Assembly: GCA_017406005.1 (NCBI GenBank)
Contig: JAFQZI010000073.1
Span: 1 to 52,307 of the forward strand
Length of the DNA stretch: 52,307 nucleotides
Direction: 5' to 3'
DNA from: Oscillospiraceae bacterium
GTDB taxonomy: Bacteria; Bacillota; Clostridia; Oscillospirales; Oscillospiraceae
Under the pieces are notes generated by a model. The model made no database searches. It was not told where the DNA came from and saw only the letters and a list, made by a program, of their open reading frames with translations. A program made the translations under genes and the position numbers. Positions 2,766 through 22,334 of the stretch are shown here, one piece after another. The stretch's first letter is position 1. Each line of letters opens with the position of its first letter.

Positions 2766-3632
2766 TCAGCTTTTCCGTCTCGTGAGTAAAAGGATGATAA
2801 TTGTCAGCAGTGGCCAGAGGATAATCGGCGTGATGCCTCCCTCCAGGCCGAATGCTGTGTCGTACCAGAGGCTGCCGACAGCTCCGGGATTCAGCCGGAA
2901 CACGGACTGGCTGACGATCAGCCCGGAGTTGGGGAGCCCGAGGAGCAGATTCTGCGTGTAATTCCAGCCGGTATGGGCCAGAATAACAAACCAGATGCTG
3001 CCTGAAGAATACATAAGAATACTCAGACAGAAACCGAAGACATAGGCAGTCAGCAGCGAAACCGGAGTTACTCCGTTGTTGGCAGTATGAGCCAGCATAA
3101 AAAGCAGCGGGTTGACCAGCACGGCGAATACAGGCCCGTATCGTTCCCGAAGTGCACCCATAACATATCCGCGGAAGAGCAATTCTTCTGCAGCACTCTG
3201 AAGCAGCACAGCTGCAAAAGCGGCAATCAGAAAAAGCAGATGAAATCCGCTGTAAACCAGCGAATAATCCCCATGCACAATGGGAACAACCGCACAGCAG
3301 AGATTTAATCCTATGCCTGCAACTAATCCCCATAATGCCGTTCCTGCATTGTTTCCCCGCATTCCGTTCTTGGCTGACGAAGAAAAGCCGGTGAAGATCT
3401 CAGGCTCTGCAAAACGTGTAAATACGATAACGGACAACAGCACGGGCAAAAATGGCAAATAGGCAGCACCAAGCTGTTTCCATTTATTGTCCGGTAAACC
3501 GGAAAGCGGCCTGATGATCAGTAACCGTGCGAGCAGAAAGGAACCGTGCAGCATTATGGCAGCAGCAATTGCCACAAAAAACACCTGACAGCAGGGAAAG
3601 CCTGTTGGATTTTTCTGTTTTTTTCGGATCAT
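2766..3632 (-). CDS. CPBP family intramembrane metalloprotease
   Basis: 288 residues with several hydrophobic helices. The diagnostic glutamate motif EEXXXR is present as SAAEELLFRGYVMG, and two later His-containing helices (LFMLAHTANNG and VILAHTGWNYTQN) supply the other expected metal ligands of the CPBP (Abi/Rce1-like) family. These membrane proteases occur in CAAX processing and in bacteriocin self-immunity. Here there is no bacteriocin or prenylated-protein gene nearby, so the substrate is unknown. It is a single gene, convergent with malQ and divergent from the glutamine synthetase gene. ATG 3632 is the only convenient start; it precedes a basic segment and the first helix. Confidence 0.88.
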   Translation of the reverse strand: MIRKKQKNPTGFPCCQVFFVAIAAAIMLHGSFLLARLLIIRPLSGLPDNKWKQLGAAYLPFLPVLLSVIVFTRFAEPEIFTGFSSSAKNGMRGNNAGTALWGLVAGIGLNLCCAVVPIVHGDYSLVYSGFHLLFLIAAFAAVLLQSAAEELLFRGYVMGALRERYGPVFAVLVNPLLFMLAHTANNGVTPVSLLTAYVFGFCLSILMYSSGSIWFVILAHTGWNYTQNLLLGLPNSGLIVSQSVFRLNPGAVGSLWYDTAFGLEGGITPIILWPLLTIIILLLTRRKS

Positions 3633-3679
3633 CTGGATTTCCTCTTCGGAGCAATTTGATGTTTGCCGGCTCTATTTCC

Positions 3680-3708
3680 TTGACAAATTGTGCGGGGACG
3701 AATAAAAT
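3680..3708 (+). promoter_or_regulatory. Sigma-A-type promoter of the glutamine synthetase gene
   Basis: TTGACA at 3680-3685, a 17-base spacer and TAAAAT at 3703-3708. This leaves a leader of about 30 bases before the GTG start at 3743. It is one of the best promoter matches in the window. Confidence 0.8.
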
Positions 3709-3742
3709 ATCCCCAATCTTTGATAATAAGGAAGAAAAATCT

Positions 3743-5839
3743 GTGAGTACGATTACGGAATTATTCGGGATCAATGTTTTTAATGAATCTGTAATGCAGC
3801 AGCGTCTGCCGGAAGATGTTTACACGCAGGTTCTCAGAGCAAAAAATGAAGGAAAACGGTTGAGCCCGGAAGCAGCGGATGTCATAGCAAATGCAATGAA
3901 AGAGTGGGCGATTGAAAAAGGAGCGACCCACTTTACCCACTGGTTCCAGCCAATGACGGGTATTACGGCAGAAAAGCACGACAGCTTTATTTCTCCTTCG
4001 AGCAATGGAAAAGTCCTGATGGATTTTTCCAGCCGAGAACTGATTCAGGGAGAGCCGGATGCATCAAGCTTCCCTTCGGGCGGCCTTCGGGCAACGTTTG
4101 AAGCGAGGGGATATACTGCCTGGGATCCTACCTCCTATGCTTTCCTGAAAGACAATGTCCTCTGCATTCCGACAGCTTTCTGTTCTTACGGCGGTGAAGC
4201 GCTGGACATGAAGACGCCGCTTCTCCGATCCATGGAGGCAATTAATCGCCAGGGCTTGAGAATTATTCGTCTGTTCGGCAATCATACAGCCAAAGCGATC
4301 CGGACGACGGTCGGTGCTGAACAGGAGTATTTTCTCATCGACAGAAGAGTCTATGACAAGCGCAAAGACCTGATTTATACCGGGCGTACCCTTTTTGGCG
4401 CACTGCCGCCGAAAGGGCAGGAACTGTCTGATCATTATTTCGGGACGATCAAACCTCGTGTTGCCGCCTTTATGAAGGAGTTGGACGAAGAACTCTGGAA
4501 GCTCGGTATCATGGCTAAAACAGAGCACAATGAAGCAGCGCCGGGGCAGCATGAGCTTGCCTGCGTGTATACAACAGCCAACATTGCGGTTGACAACAAC
4601 CAGCTTACCATGGAGACGATGCAGAAGGTCGCCCGGAAGTATGACATGGTCTGTCTCCTCCATGAAAAGCCGTTTGAGGGGATTAACGGAAGTGGGAAAC
4701 ACAATAACTGGTCTATCTCCACAGACGAGGGAGAAAACCTTCTCGAGCCGGGGGATACACCGTCCGAAAATGCACGTTTCCTCCTGATGCTTTGTGCTGT
4801 GATTCAGGCAGTGGATGACTATCAGGATATCCTGCGTCTTTCCGTTTCCTCCGAATCGAATGACTGCCGCACCTGCGGAGCAGATGAAGCTCCTCCGGCG
4901 ATTTTGTCCATGTTTATCGGGGGAGAGCTGGAAAGCATCCTGACGGCTATTGAGCATGATGAATCCTATGGCGGCACCAGCCATGAAGAGTTTAAAGTCG
5001 GTGTTCACGTGCTTCCGAAGTTCCCGAAAGATTCCACGGACCGGAACCGTACCTCTCCGATGGCTTTCACGGGCAACAAGTTCGAATTCCGTATGCCCGG
5101 TTCCATGCAGTCGCTTTCAGGGCCGAATGTTGTGCTGAATACGGCGGTGGCAGAGTCCCTCCGGCAGTATGCGGATATTCTGGAACAGTCTGAAGATTTT
5201 GAAAAGGATCTCCATGATCTGCTGAAAAGCGTCATTTCCCGCCACAAGAGAATAATCTTCAATGGCAACAATTACGGGCAGGAGTGGGAAGAAGAAGCGG
5301 CCAGGCGCGGGCTCCTGAACCTGAAAGCCCTGCCTGACTGTGCCCCTGCTTATCTCGCGGTAAAAAACGTTAAGCTGTTTACCGACCACAATGTCTATAC
5401 CGGCACCGAGCTTCATGCACGCTATGAGATATCTCTCAGCACCTATACAAAGCTGATGACAGTGGAAGCTTTGACCATGCTGAATATGGCTCGCAGGGAA
5501 ATTCTGCCGGCTGTCAGCCGTTTTTCGGGCGAGCTTGCTCGCACTGCAAATGAGAAGCAGTCTTTCTCCACGATGATTGACTGCAGTTATGAACTTGCGG
5601 TTTCATCTGAAATCAGTGAGCTTCTGGCATCTGCTTTGGAAAAAACGGATGCTCTCGGCCAGGCAATCAAAGGCGCAAAGCAGATCGAAGGATCCTACGA
5701 AAATGCGAGATATCATCGGGATGTGATCTTCCAGAAGATGGAGGATCTGCGGCGCGTCTGCGATAAACTGGAGCGGATGACGTCCAGAGAGTATTGGCCG
5801 TTCCCGGTTTACGGGGATCTTCTTTTCAGCGTGAAGTGA
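3743..5839 (+). CDS. glnN: Glutamine synthetase type III
   Basis: 698 residues from GTG 3743, which follows AAGGAAG at 3728-3734. Longer upstream starts would read through the promoter, so this start is preferred. It condenses ammonia and glutamate to glutamine with ATP in the cytoplasm. GSIII signature blocks are visible: GAEQEYFLIDRR, KTEHNEAAPGQHELACVYT, GSGKHNNWSI and NKFEFRMPGSMQSLSGPN. The roughly 700-residue size separates it from GSI (about 450) and GSII. GSIII is common in anaerobes such as Bacteroides and Clostridia. It is monocistronic, with its own promoter and terminator. No GlnR- or PII-type gene is adjacent. Confidence 0.97.
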   Translation: MSTITELFGINVFNESVMQQRLPEDVYTQVLRAKNEGKRLSPEAADVIANAMKEWAIEKGATHFTHWFQPMTGITAEKHDSFISPSSNGKVLMDFSSRELIQGEPDASSFPSGGLRATFEARGYTAWDPTSYAFLKDNVLCIPTAFCSYGGEALDMKTPLLRSMEAINRQGLRIIRLFGNHTAKAIRTTVGAEQEYFLIDRRVYDKRKDLIYTGRTLFGALPPKGQELSDHYFGTIKPRVAAFMKELDEELWKLGIMAKTEHNEAAPGQHELACVYTTANIAVDNNQLTMETMQKVARKYDMVCLLHEKPFEGINGSGKHNNWSISTDEGENLLEPGDTPSENARFLLMLCAVIQAVDDYQDILRLSVSSESNDCRTCGADEAPPAILSMFIGGELESILTAIEHDESYGGTSHEEFKVGVHVLPKFPKDSTDRNRTSPMAFTGNKFEFRMPGSMQSLSGPNVVLNTAVAESLRQYADILEQSEDFEKDLHDLLKSVISRHKRIIFNGNNYGQEWEEEAARRGLLNLKALPDCAPAYLAVKNVKLFTDHNVYTGTELHARYEISLSTYTKLMTVEALTMLNMARREILPAVSRFSGELARTANEKQSFSTMIDCSYELAVSSEISELLASALEKTDALGQAIKGAKQIEGSYENARYHRDVIFQKMEDLRRVCDKLERMTSREYWPFPVYGDLLFSVK

Positions 5840-18208: not shown

Positions 18209-18240
18209 GAAGGCAGGAATTATTTCCTGTCTTCTTTTTC
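18209..18240 (+). terminator. Bidirectional terminator after mglC
   Basis: An 11-bp stem GAAGGCAGGAA / TTCCTGTCTTC with one G-T pair and a 4-base loop, with CTTTTTC downstream. On the minus strand a T run also follows. The minus-strand GTPase gene has its TAA (18220-18222) in the loop. Confidence 0.88.
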
Positions 18241-20790
18241 TATGTACGGCGCGGCACGCATCTGCTGCAGAGCATCCTCCACCTCGGACAGAAACTCTTT
18301 GGACGAAGTACGCAACACTCCGGCCCGCAATGCCGTCAGGCGGATCAGTGAATCAGATGTCACGACCCTTACCGCCTCATCCTTCCCGATCTCATCGGCA
18401 AGCCGTTCTATATACAGGTCGGCGCTCTCGTTCTCACGCGTGTAGGCAATGTGCAGATTGGCAGAGTCATACCGCTCACCCTCTCCACCGGACACCTTGT
18501 ACGCATCAAAGACCAGCACGGTTTCTTTCCCGGTAAATCCGCTGAAATTGATCATCCGTTCAATCAGCTTTTCCCGGGCAGAATCAAGGCTGTCGGCGGC
18601 AAGTTTTTTCAGATCATCCCAGGCAAAAATCAGATTATAGCCGTCCACAATCAGGCGTTCTTTCCGCGGCTGGAAGGAGAGCCGTATATCACGCTTCCCG
18701 TTCACAGTGGGAACGGCATACTGCCTTCGTCGAATCGGCCCGAATTCGCGCTCCATGATAGCTTCCAGCTCTTTCTCGTCAATCGAGACATTCCTGTTTC
18801 GGTCAGCGGCAGCAGGGGAGGGGGCTGTCTGTCCGTTTATACTGCCTTCAGCTGCTTTAAAAGTTGGCGGCAGGTGCATATACTCCGGGACCTGATTCCA
18901 TTTAACATTGAAACCGGCCCCATGCGCACAGAAGATGCTGTCCGGCGAATTTTCCAGATCTTTTTCCGGATCATACTGTGCTTCTTCAATTACAGCTTTC
19001 GCATTCAGGCATGGGCGATATCCGTCCGGCAGGCATGAAAACTTCCCCTTGCCGCTGGTGTAGGCTGCCACCTCACTGCTGTATCCGGCCATGGCAGCTG
19101 CCGGAGCTGTTCCGATGAGCACAGTCCGTCCATTCATCGTTTCCGGCGTGCCGTGCTCTCCGCCCATCATCCGGATATCGGAAATTGCCCGTCCGATCTG
19201 CTCTGCCGGCACTTCCAGCCGGAAGCGGTAGTACGGTTCCAGCAGGATGCTTTCCGCCTGCATCAATCCCTGCCGTATGGCACGGTAAGTTGCCTGGCGG
19301 AAGTCCCCGCCCTCCGTGTGCTTCAAATGCGCTTTCCCGGCGGTGAGCGTGATTTTCATGTCCGTGATCGGGGAACCTGTCAGCACGCCGCGGTGTTCTT
19401 TTTCCTCCAGATGGGTGAGGATGAGTCTCTGCCAGTTCAGATCAAGCTCATCGGTGCTGCATACAGTGTCAAAGATCAGCCCGCTTCCGGGCTCGCCGGG
19501 CTCCAGCAGCAGATGCACTTCCGCATAGTGCCGGAGCGGTTCATAGTGTCCGACACCCTCAACCGTTGCGGCAATGGTCTCCTTGTACAGGATATGCCCC
19601 TGGCTGAATGTAACATCAAGGTCAAACCGCTCTTTGATGATGTTGTGCAGTACCTCCGTCTGCACGGTCCCCATCAGTTGCAGCTGAATTTCATTGAGTG
19701 CAGGCTCCCATACCAGGTGCAGCGTCGGATCCTCTTCTTCGAGTAGGCGCAGGCGGGGGAGAACTGCCTGGAGATCCGTTCCTTTCAGGAACTCCAGCCG
19801 ATACCCGAGCACAGGCTCCAGAACAGGCAAGCCGGAGTCCGGCTCAATGCCGAGCCCCTGTCCCGGCCATGTGCCGGAAAGCCCTATCACCGAACATACA
19901 GTCCCTGCTTCTGCTTTCTCGATCGTTTCATATTTCAGTCCCGAGTAGCATCGCATCTCTGCAACCTTTTCTTCCAGGGCGGCTTCGCCGTGCAAAGGCA
20001 GATACCGTATCGTGTCCCGCACCGAGAGGCTCCCTCCGGTGATCCTCATGCACGTCAATCGTCTGCCCTTGTTGTCCCGCAGGATTTTGTATACCTTCGC
20101 GCCGAAAGCATCCGGCACCTTCTTTTCGATTGTATAGGCCTCCAGTGCCGAGAGGAATTCCTCCACGCCGTCCAGCTTCAGCCCGGACCCGAAATAACAC
20201 GGAAAGAGACGGCGCTCCGCAATCAGGCGGGAAATGCTTCCCGCCGAAACAGAGCCCGTCTCAAGCAATTCATTCAGTACGTCTTCATCCAGCATGGCAG
20301 CCGCTTCTTCAGCCTCGGCTGCCGCCATATCGATGCACCCCTCGCCGAGGTGCATCTGCAGGTCTTCCATCAGGGTTTCGTGGCCGAGCGCGGAAGCATC
20401 CATTTTCGTGATGAACACAAAAGTCGGAGTGTTGTAGCGCTCCAGCAGGTTCCACAGCGTTTCCGTGTGCGCCTGTACCCCGTCCGTCCCGCTGATGACC
20501 AGCACCGCGTAGTCGAGGATCTGCAGCGTGCGTTCCATCTCCGCTGAAAAATCCACGTGACCGGGGGTATCGAGCAGCGTGACGTGCAGATCATTCCACT
20601 GCAGCATGGCCTGCTTGGAGAAAATCGTAATGCCCCGCTCCCGTTCCTGGTCGTCGTTGTCCAGAAAGCTGTTCCGGTGGTCTACCCGCCCGAGAGTTCG
20701 TATCCTGCCGGACAGATACAACATCGCCTCCGTCAGCGTCGTCTTGCCAGCATCAACATGAGCCAGAATACCAAGTACGATGTGTTTCAT
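18220..20790 (-). CDS. TetM/EF-G-like ribosomal GTPase fused to a YacP/Rae1-type NYN nuclease domain
   Basis: 856 residues. Residues 1-640 are a translation-factor GTPase of the Tet(M)/EF-G type: P-loop AHVDAGKT (10-17), switch I RGIT (52-55), DTPGH (74-78) and TKMD (128-131), followed by EF-G-like domains. After a linker, residues 711-850 match the NYN/YacP family (LIVDGYNLIFAWDDL, VLVFDAYKV, ESADLYIERLADE, VVTSDSL). Candidate catalytic acids are D716, D762, D791 and D813. The B. subtilis YacP protein Rae1 is a ribosome-associated mRNA endonuclease (recalled knowledge). The ATG overlaps the galT stop by 4 bases. Tetracycline resistance is possible but unproven; A-site mRNA cleavage is my inference. 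Confidence 0.9.
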   Translation of the reverse strand: MKHIVLGILAHVDAGKTTLTEAMLYLSGRIRTLGRVDHRNSFLDNDDQERERGITIFSKQAMLQWNDLHVTLLDTPGHVDFSAEMERTLQILDYAVLVISGTDGVQAHTETLWNLLERYNTPTFVFITKMDASALGHETLMEDLQMHLGEGCIDMAAAEAEEAAAMLDEDVLNELLETGSVSAGSISRLIAERRLFPCYFGSGLKLDGVEEFLSALEAYTIEKKVPDAFGAKVYKILRDNKGRRLTCMRITGGSLSVRDTIRYLPLHGEAALEEKVAEMRCYSGLKYETIEKAEAGTVCSVIGLSGTWPGQGLGIEPDSGLPVLEPVLGYRLEFLKGTDLQAVLPRLRLLEEEDPTLHLVWEPALNEIQLQLMGTVQTEVLHNIIKERFDLDVTFSQGHILYKETIAATVEGVGHYEPLRHYAEVHLLLEPGEPGSGLIFDTVCSTDELDLNWQRLILTHLEEKEHRGVLTGSPITDMKITLTAGKAHLKHTEGGDFRQATYRAIRQGLMQAESILLEPYYRFRLEVPAEQIGRAISDIRMMGGEHGTPETMNGRTVLIGTAPAAAMAGYSSEVAAYTSGKGKFSCLPDGYRPCLNAKAVIEEAQYDPEKDLENSPDSIFCAHGAGFNVKWNQVPEYMHLPPTFKAAEGSINGQTAPSPAAADRNRNVSIDEKELEAIMEREFGPIRRRQYAVPTVNGKRDIRLSFQPRKERLIVDGYNLIFAWDDLKKLAADSLDSAREKLIERMINFSGFTGKETVLVFDAYKVSGGEGERYDSANLHIAYTRENESADLYIERLADEIGKDEAVRVVTSDSLIRLTALRAGVLRTSSKEFLSEVEDALQQMRAAPYIEKEDRK

Positions 20791-22289
20791 CCGTTGACCG
20801 CATCGATAAACCGCAGGAAGGCCTCTCGCCCTTCCGCATCTCCTTTGTAGACGCCGGCGTCCTCCAGCACCTCTTCAAATACTTTTCCGATTTCCTGCCG
20901 CAGGATCGTCTCAGTATTTTCTGGTGTAAAGGCATGGCGAGACATGATTTCGTATGCCCAGTCGGCATGCTTCACCAGAATGTCATCTTCATAGAGGTCA
21001 CGACCCTCGAGAATAGCCGTCCTGAGGTCTTCCATTTCCATTTTGAGCCTTCCGGGGAGAATGGCAAGCCCCATCACCTCAATCAGTCCAATGTTTTCCT
21101 TCTTGATGTGGTGCAGTTTTGCATGCGGATGGAAGACACCCAGCGGGTGTTCCTCGGTTGTGATATTGTTGCGAAGCACAAGGTCCAGTTCATAGTTTTC
21201 CCCGCGCCGGCGTACTATCGGGTTCAGCGTGTTATGAGGCACGCCCTCCGTCTCTGCAAAGATAAACGCCTTTTCTTCCGTATACCCGCGCCAGCATGCA
21301 AGAACTTTAGTTGCCAGCTCTGTAAGACGTCCGTAATCGGGGCTGTCCAGCCGGATAACTGACATCGGCCATTTCAGGATCCCGGCAGCCACATCTTCAA
21401 ACCCGTTGAAGGTGACGGCAGTCTCGATCTCCGCCTTTGCCATCGGGAAGTTGTGTTTTCCTCCCTGGAAGTGGTCGTGGCTCAGAATCGATCCGCCCAC
21501 GATCGGCAGGTCAGCATTGGAACCGATGTTGTAATGCGGGAACTGCCGTACAAAATCAAACAGCTTGCGGAAAGCCGGTTCATCGATCTTCATGGGCACA
21601 TGCTCCCCGTTGAACAGGATGCAGTGTTCGTTATAGTAGACATACGGAGAATACTGGAAGAACCATGCGCTCCCGTTGATCGTCACCGGCACGAGACGAT
21701 GGTTCTGCCGTGCCGGATGGTCCATTCTCCCCGCATATCCCTCATTTTCCATGCAGAGCTGGCACTTCGGATATCCGCTCTGCACAGCGTTTTTCGCTTC
21801 AGCAATGGCCCTCGGATCCTTTTCAGGCTTGGCGAGGTTGATCGTAACTTCCAGCGTGCCGTACTTCCCGGTATAGAGCCACTTTTCATCTTTGGCCAGC
21901 CGGTCGCGGCGGATATAGTTAGTGTCCTTGCTGAAGGCGTAAAACCAGTCGGTTGCCGTTTCGGGCGAGTTCGCATAGAGCTCCCGGAACTTAGCTCGCA
22001 CCTCATGCGGAGCCGGTGTCAGCACGCCCATCAGCTTTGTGTCAAAAAGGTCATGCGCCGTGCTGCCGCTCTCTATAATCCCGCGTCTTACGGCGTCCTC
22101 TGTCAGCAGGTCAAGCACAGCCGCCGGCATTGGGGCGTCTTTGTCCGGCAGAGGAAACTCCTCTCCGCCGTCAGCGGAATCCAGCTGGAGCACTTCCAGC
22201 AGCCGGTTAAAAGCCCACACCCGGTCCTCAGGCAGAATCAGTTCTTTCTCCTCTGCATAATCCAAAAGAGCATTGAGTAATTTTTCCAT
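20787..22289 (-). CDS. galT: UDP-glucose--hexose-1-phosphate uridylyltransferase, Firmicutes type
   Basis: About 500 residues. It exchanges UMP between UDP-glucose and galactose-1-phosphate in the Leloir pathway. This is the long class found in Bacillota: the N-terminal ALLDYAEEKELILPEDRVW, FQYSPYVYYNEHCILFNGEH, GGSILSHDHFQGGKHNFPM with the catalytic-type histidines, and NPIVRRRGENYELDLVLRNN. Both ATG 22289 and GTG 22295 are usable behind AAAGGGGA. It overlaps the GTPase-NYN gene by 4 bases. It fits with MglBAC galactose import upstream on the other strand. Confidence 0.95.
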   Translation of the reverse strand: MEKLLNALLDYAEEKELILPEDRVWAFNRLLEVLQLDSADGGEEFPLPDKDAPMPAAVLDLLTEDAVRRGIIESGSTAHDLFDTKLMGVLTPAPHEVRAKFRELYANSPETATDWFYAFSKDTNYIRRDRLAKDEKWLYTGKYGTLEVTINLAKPEKDPRAIAEAKNAVQSGYPKCQLCMENEGYAGRMDHPARQNHRLVPVTINGSAWFFQYSPYVYYNEHCILFNGEHVPMKIDEPAFRKLFDFVRQFPHYNIGSNADLPIVGGSILSHDHFQGGKHNFPMAKAEIETAVTFNGFEDVAAGILKWPMSVIRLDSPDYGRLTELATKVLACWRGYTEEKAFIFAETEGVPHNTLNPIVRRRGENYELDLVLRNNITTEEHPLGVFHPHAKLHHIKKENIGLIEVMGLAILPGRLKMEMEDLRTAILEGRDLYEDDILVKHADWAYEIMSRHAFTPENTETILRQEIGKVFEEVLEDAGVYKGDAEGREAFLRFIDAVNG

Positions 22290-22334
22290 GTTCACAGTTT
22301 CCCCTTTAATATTTTCAAGACCGTTTTCTTCCCT

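Follow-up and report, generated by a model that had tools for sequence, protein, structure and literature searches.

The fusion gene and its domains

The window is a stretch of 52,307 nucleotides from an Oscillospiraceae bacterium (positions 1–52,307 of contig JAFQZI010000073.1 in assembly GCA_017406005.1). On its reverse strand, overlapping galT, is a gene that encodes a translational GTPase joined to a YacP-like nuclease domain. Its features are:

18220..20790, reverse strand: fusion gene (ORF of 856 amino acids), encoding a translational GTPase, a C-terminal extension, a linker, and an NYN_YacP domain
19003..20790, reverse strand: GTPase domains I–V (residues 1–596), with the architecture of EF-G and intact P-loop, switch, and DTPGH motifs
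19516..19557, reverse strand: equivalent of loop I of domain IV, GVGHYEPLRHYAEV (residues 412–425)
19297..19329, reverse strand: equivalent of loop III of domain IV, HLKHTEGGDFR (residues 488–498), at the position of YSPVSTPADFR in Tet proteins
18856..19002, reverse strand: C-terminal extension (residues 597–645), SxFCxHGAGF...W...MH, common to fused and stand-alone members of the clade
18664..18855, reverse strand: linker (residues 646–709), mostly of low confidence in the structure model
18253..18663, reverse strand: NYN_YacP nuclease domain (residues 710–846), with acidic residues D716, D762, D791, and D813, assigned by profile, alignment, and fold
20787..22295, reverse strand: galT, sharing 4 bases with the fusion gene

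The original prediction, which was made from the sequence of the window, described this gene as an intact translational GTPase with an NYN domain of the YacP/Rae1 type, and this reading of the domains is right. The prediction also called for a Pfam search, a fold comparison, and a count of fused and free forms across genomes. Against Pfam's NYN_YacP, the C-terminal part scores 141.6 bits, over the cut-off of 24.6. When the whole protein was compared by fold, its NYN part had no match among those listed. We therefore folded the domain alone, and it matches the fold of the solved Rae1 structures (PDB 5MQ8/5MQ9). In the model of the whole protein (pTM 0.65), the linker is disordered, with pLDDT below 50 at residues 647–672 and 687–708, so this model does not indicate where the NYN domain lies relative to domain IV.

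Rae1 (YacP) from Bacillus subtilis is an endoribonuclease that acts in the ribosomal A site (PMC6613710, PMC12320835, PMC8266666), a place where few other nucleases are known to cut mRNA (PMC12320835). The original prediction pointed to D716 and D791 as acidic residues with the spacing of this family's active site. Both of them align with YacP, and all four acids (D716, D762, D791, and D813) are kept in 104/104 fused NYN domains as well as in 47/47 free ones. Replacement of the catalytic acids in most homologs, which would have counted against the prediction, was not seen.

To consider conservation along the protein, we scanned contigs of the genomes and found 67 relatives. The 56 that were full length, together with the window's protein, gave an alignment of 57 rows, across which D716, N719, D762, D791, S812, and D813 are invariant. 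Between the window and the genome RGIG9615 (dS near 1), dN/dS is 0.03 for the NYN domain, 0.08 for GTPase residues 239–596, and 0.18 for the linker. Between the window and a more distant relative (L003; dS of 1.6–1.9), it is 0.18 for the NYN domain and 0.17 for the GTPase. Judging by these ratios, both the GTPase and NYN parts are under purifying selection. The NYN domain appears to be the more constrained of the two in the closer pair only.

There are conserved residues in and just before the C-terminal extension as well. Cys594, Cys621, and His639 (window 18856–19011) are near-invariant in fused and stand-alone members; among the fused proteins, they are found in 86/86, 84/86, and 82/86 sequences, respectively. 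They might bind a metal, or two of them might form a structural pair.

The GTPase belongs to a clade apart from the Tet proteins

The GTPase part belongs to the EF-G-like superfamily: it has domains I–V, with the P-loop, DTPGH, and xKMD motifs. Its match to EF-G_D2 is slightly below the Pfam cut-off, and the protein scores 254 bits against NCBIfam's EF-G model, under the cut-off of 659.4. Its best match in NCBIfam is tet_protect, at 389 bits, which is also under the cut-off (775 bits).

On the ribosome, Tet-type factors occupy a site that overlaps that of EF-G and extend to the A site, and they require GTP hydrolysis for their departure (PMC8161019). In these proteins, loop III of domain IV works at the drug site (PMC8161019, PMC4750697). 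At the position of loop III, 14 of the 22 Tet-like rows that we fetched have YSPVST, EF-G has YHEVDSSEMAFK, and the clade of the window's protein has HxKHTEGGDFR. Loop I of this clade is GxGH(Y/F)EPLRHYAEV, with few variants. H421, H491, and T492 are present in 86/86 fused proteins and in 17/17 rows labelled stand-alone (including one, from genome G224, that is cut by its contig). H421 is present in 0/22 Tet-like rows, while H491 and T492 are present together in 6/22, which are a third group. Six loci (L119, L121, L122, L123, L124, and L125) belong to an EF-G/Tet-like group with a histidine-rich loop III, HxVHTHPxDF; this group is distinct both from Tet(M)-like proteins and from the clade of the window's protein.

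We also built a profile (A2) from domains IV–V and the C-terminal extension of the clade. Members of the clade score at least 270 bits, fragments of members score up to 126 bits, and the other translational GTPases listed score up to 116 bits. A phylogenetic tree was built from 66 rows: 34 of the 86 fused proteins, 16 of the 17 labelled stand-alone, 13 of the 22 Tet-like rows, and three EF-G proteins. (L142, the contig-cut sequence from G224, was left out.) The clade, with fused and stand-alone proteins together, has a support of 100; the 13 Tet-like rows group together at 88; and the fused proteins form a single group (SH-aLRT of 99). As far as sequence comparison can tell, the window's GTPase lies in its own clade, apart from the tetracycline-protection proteins, and has distinct loops at the tip of domain IV. 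The original prediction had called the GTPase TetM/EF-G-like, but a likeness to Tet(M) does not hold for the drug-facing part: loop III is not YSPVST, the score is 389 of the 775 bits required, and the clade is separate.

The architecture itself has been described before. Atkinson et al. (2015) reported that Tet proteins of ten clostridial species had gained a YacP-like NYN domain, and they proposed that RNase activity contributes to resistance by a novel mechanism (PMC4342817). On this proposal, domain IV would expel the drug and the NYN domain would supplement the protection. It is favored by their classification of the fusion as Tet, by the best match in NCBIfam, and by the annotation of plasmid-borne relatives, both fused and stand-alone, as TetM/TetW/TetO/TetS. 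Also, a triple mutant in loop III of Tet(M) (S508A P509A V510A) can stay active, so the absence of the loop sequence is compatible with protection (PMC4750697), and the sequence of loop III does not by itself settle the question of resistance. Against the proposal, the protein misses the cut-off for the Tet family, its loop III is HxKHTEGGDFR instead of YSPVSTPADFR, and it belongs to a separate clade. Furthermore, the window's assembly has a separate partial gene with a genuine YSPVSTPADFR. We think that tetracycline resistance is unlikely.

This partial Tet-type gene is on another contig (C66, positions 3599–5182), where it runs off the end of the 5.2 kb contig. The contig also has an integrase-like ORF (labelled by eye).

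Two of the relatives that are annotated as TetM/TetW/TetO/TetS are LSL_RS10690 from plasmid pMP118 of L. salivarius, which is stand-alone, and V3C14_RS18890 from a plasmid of A. rectalis, which is fused. Neither of them has YSPVST. The Ligilactobacillus plasmid member has a variant of loop III, SNVHTVGGDFR, and LSL_RS10690 adjoins a copy of rpsN. Such annotations, for fused proteins and for related stand-alone ones, are possible false calls of resistance.

Fused and free YacP do not occur together

To examine the distribution of the fusion, we used a sample of 291 genomes from the window's class. NYN_YacP is found in 189 of these genomes and the GTPase clade in 122. We sorted them into 104 with the fused form, 83 with a free YacP over the cut-off, one that is undecided (G224, where the GTPase and NYN are on separate contigs), and one below the cut-off (G248, at 20.2 bits, which we left out of the counts). 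Most of the fused genes (97/104) have an open frame of at least 841 amino acids, and the other seven are cut short or interrupted. For about 10 of the 104 genomes, the fusion was deduced from the length of the frame and a single NYN match. In the genome that the window comes from (completeness 93%, contamination 6.6%), the fusion gene is the single match to NYN_YacP.

The original prediction raised the question of whether free yacP is absent from genomes with the fusion. None of the 104 genomes with the fusion has a free YacP over the cut-off: the two forms occur together in 0/291 genomes, versus 29.7 expected if they were independent (Fisher p = 2e-20, with kinship ignored). Put another way, the 187 genomes with a fused or free YacP contain no case of coexistence. 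The fused form is found in 25 families and the free form in 30. Four families (f25, f26, f30, and f31) have both, in different genomes, and so does one genus (g36), in which G025, G136, G201, and G242 have the fusion and G059 has a free YacP. G136, G201, and G242 also have second NYN matches, of 21 bits over 47 positions; we did not accept these as free YacP, as they are below the cut-off of 24.6 bits. One genome (G133) has two copies of the fusion.

The GTPase clade occurs without a fused NYN domain in 18 genomes. Ten of these have a free YacP and eight have no NYN match, although among the eight, the gene of G131 runs into the end of its contig, so that it may be a fusion, and G237's frame is short (293 amino acids). 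Free YacP is present in 10/18 genomes with a stand-alone member of the clade, versus 73/168 without the clade, so the stand-alone GTPases hardly follow the presence of free YacP. Finally, 94 of the 291 genomes have neither an NYN_YacP match nor the GTPase clade, so the function is dispensable at the scale of the class sample. In a sample of 398 genomes from the phylum, we found the clade in 29 (E ≤ 1e-60), of which eight were already in the class sample.

A tree of the NYN domains, which has few columns, does not bring all the fused ones together: a long-branch sequence (L205) lies outside, a free one from genome G243 (L084) lies inside, and three changes are needed to explain the fused state. 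A single origin of the fusion thus rests on the GTPase tree. The free-standing NYN gene of G243 encodes 173 amino acids (L236:2287–2808, reverse strand) and groups inside the fused domains. This genome has a stand-alone member of the GTPase clade and has no yacP beside rlmB. The free NYN of G243 possibly reflects a fission, or else it is kin to the source of the fused domain.

The free gene decayed beside rlmB in some genomes with the fusion

In B. subtilis, rlmB (yacO) and rae1 form an operon in that order (PMC6613710). Similarly, free yacP directly follows rlmB in G059, G109, G121, G189, and G259. We read the rlmB region in 24 genomes with the fusion. In 15 of these, rlmB is followed by sigH, with 86–591 bases between them and no yacP gene. 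(NCBIfam named sigH in five of these genomes; in the other ten, we recognized it from a sequence motif.) The other nine, including the window's own, have no sigH beside rlmB; in the window's genome, rlmB is followed by an ORF of 883 amino acids without a Pfam match.

Three of the gaps between rlmB and sigH contain clear relics of yacP. With a profile of free YacP, these score 36.2 bits in G025, 21.9 bits in G112, and 14.6 bits in G180, and shuffled gaps never scored as high (0/189, 0/195, and 0/196, respectively). The relic in G025 carries many stops. With a profile of the fused domains, the scores are 29.9, 17.1, and 12.2 bits; because the free profile was built from 47 rows and the fused profile from 20, the preference for the free profile is only a hint. 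Two other gaps have weak traces (7.1 bits in G222 and 3.6 bits in G155), each above all 186 scored shuffles, and the remaining 10 of the 15 gaps have no trace of yacP. These relics imply decay of free yacP in lineages with the fusion. At least two genera are involved, as G112 and G180 belong to the same genus.

The nuclease also differs at its C terminus. Free YacP proteins have 62–77 residues after the last active-site aspartate (47/47), while most of the fused proteins have 50 or fewer (69/104); the window's protein has 43 residues after D813. A pattern in the free tail (L-E-K-x-R, or LEKxRR type) is found in 30/47 free and 0/103 fused proteins, a contrast that is descriptive because the pattern was derived from the free tails themselves. 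The tail region of Rae1 contains R166, and R166P is among the suppressors with loss of function (PMC6613710). It is plausible that the tail would dock free Rae1 and would be superfluous once the GTPase does the docking.

Gene neighborhood and mobile elements

The original prediction also placed the gene in a housekeeping operon. The overlap of 4 bases with galT in the window fits this, but it is not general: beyond the window, we found the linkage to galT only in RGIG9615, which is a closely related genome. We clustered the genes within three positions of the fusion gene at 55 of 57 loci (L004 and L058 were left out, as the target was not recognized there), and no neighbor cluster was found at more than 11 of the 55. 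At three loci, a same-strand EF-Tu-like gene precedes the fusion gene by one or two positions. At three loci from Ruminococcus (L039, L042, and L059), the fusion gene is preceded by an EF-G ORF in the same orientation.

We also compared the protein to plasmids with tblastn and obtained 50 records at E ≤ 1e-60, two of which match the greater part of the query at a single location. Near-full fusion genes (97–98% coverage of the query) are also present in two unannotated records from human feces that are labelled "Bacteriophage sp." (MT835563 and MT835514); these are perhaps bacterial contigs. We rejected an origin as a mobile cassette, as two plasmid records and two "Bacteriophage sp." records do not make the fusion a cassette.

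A probable ribosome-targeted nuclease in place of Rae1

The fusion is real, conserved, and widespread, with many carriers among Clostridia-type gut bacteria. The original prediction was that it is a ribosome-directed factor of the Rae1 type, and this gains partial support from the lack of coexistence with free YacP in 187 genomes, the relics of yacP, and the invariant acids. We think it probable that the fusion is a ribosome-targeted endoribonuclease that took over the job of free Rae1/YacP. The fusion has both kinds of activity on one chain, accompanies the loss of free Rae1, and retains both active sites. The simplest reading is a factor that would visit ribosomes whose A site is vacant, cut the mRNA there, and depart upon GTP hydrolysis. 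This case is built by comparison, from the motifs of the GTPase, the nuclease site, the single group of fused proteins, the exclusion and decay of yacP, and the loss of the tail motif; ribosome binding, the position at the A site, mRNA cleavage, and GTP-coupled release are what we infer.

In the proposed mechanism, the GTPase part would bind the ribosome where EF-G and Tet(M) bind, at the factor site. The tip of domain IV, which is rich in histidine and arginine, would reach into a vacant A site. When a ribosome is slow or paused, this would keep the NYN domain, on its flexible linker, next to the mRNA in the A site, which it would cut. Hydrolysis of GTP would free the factor, the cut mRNA would go to decay, and the ribosome would go to rescue. 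More tentatively, we speculate that this is an endonuclease clocked by GTP within one chain: the clade might sense vacant A sites, bring its own nuclease to the decoding center, cut the mRNA of paused ribosomes, and leave upon hydrolysis, and it might have replaced Rae1 in much of the class, with repeated decay of yacP. Given that stand-alone members exist, the GTPase may also be useful by itself.

Another possibility is a role in the maturation of ribosomes or tRNA, or in quality control of the 30S subunit, in which the GTPase would inspect ribosomes that are being assembled or are damaged, while rRNA or tRNA would be trimmed or cut by the NYN domain. NYN domains have been proposed to act in rRNA and tRNA maturation (Anantharaman and Aravind 2006, as cited in PMC4342817), yacO (rlmB) and rae1 belong to one genetic pathway in B. 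subtilis (PMC6613710), and the EF-Tu-like genes upstream at three loci would fit as well. However, free Rae1 cuts mRNA in the A site (PMC6613710, PMC12320835, PMC8266666) and the fused domain retains its acids. Also, the absence of both domains from 94/291 genomes would be unusual for a maturation factor. We consider this role unlikely.

Alternatively, the two halves might act separately, with the NYN domain as a passenger on a GTPase that works in rescue or as an alternative translocase, so that the fusion only fixes the dose. In favor of this, stand-alone GTPases of the clade occur both with and without free YacP, and the free-standing NYN of G243 groups with the fused ones. On the other hand, 25 families in the class sample have the fusion, which is a single group in the GTPase tree, and the shortened or changed tail of the nuclease in the fused form suggests that the GTPase serves the nuclease. 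We find separate functions improbable. Tetracycline resistance with an added RNase seems the least likely of the three. The fused form is in 104/291 genomes, with varied neighborhoods, and a role in resistance would not predict the exclusion of free YacP.

A ribosome-targeted nuclease is a testable idea: a GTPase would guide an mRNA cutter on the ribosome. To our knowledge, it is unclear how Rae1 selects ribosomes, and a natural fusion to an A-site-type GTPase, which seemingly displaced free Rae1, points to a partner activity. We are not aware of any translational GTPase that carries its own RNase and whose function has been demonstrated. A single protein would allow cleavage to be studied together with ribosome binding and the state of GTP. 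The reassignment would also remove a class of doubtful calls of tetracycline resistance (TetM/TetW/TetO/TetS) from public records.

Comparison with known systems

Like Tet(M) and Tet(O), the window's protein has EF-G-like domains I–V, intact GTPase motifs, and some C-terminal extension. It differs from them in loops I and III of domain IV, in its clade, in the C-terminal extension itself, in the additional NYN domain, and in missing the NCBIfam cut-off. It is unlike EF-G (FusA) in the loops of domain IV, in the added NYN domain, and in its low score for that family.

The proteins of Atkinson et al. (2015), which are also clostridial Tet-like GTPases with a YacP-like NYN domain, are very probably the same as those described here. 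The passages of that paper considered here place them in the Tet class and do not mention the exclusion of yacP, relics, a separate clade, or the loss of the tail (PMC4342817). Among the papers listed in our searches, no other concerns the fusion, judging by its title or the start of its abstract. The distribution of Rae1 is the subject of Condon et al. (2018), which could mention it. So, the architecture has been known since 2015, and as far as we searched, the separate clade, the replacement of Rae1, the relics, and the loss of the tail are new.

With Rae1 (YacP), the fused domain shares the NYN fold, a match to Pfam's NYN_YacP over the cut-off, and the aligned acids: D716, D762, and D791 align with D7, D53, and D81 of Rae1 (numbered from the alignment), and D813 aligns with the aspartate of TSD. 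Rae1 is a free enzyme (a chain of 181 residues in PDB 5MQ8/5MQ9) that is encoded beside rlmB. In contrast, the fused NYN domain is at the end of a translational GTPase, is encoded elsewhere in the genome, and lacks the C-terminal tail motif.
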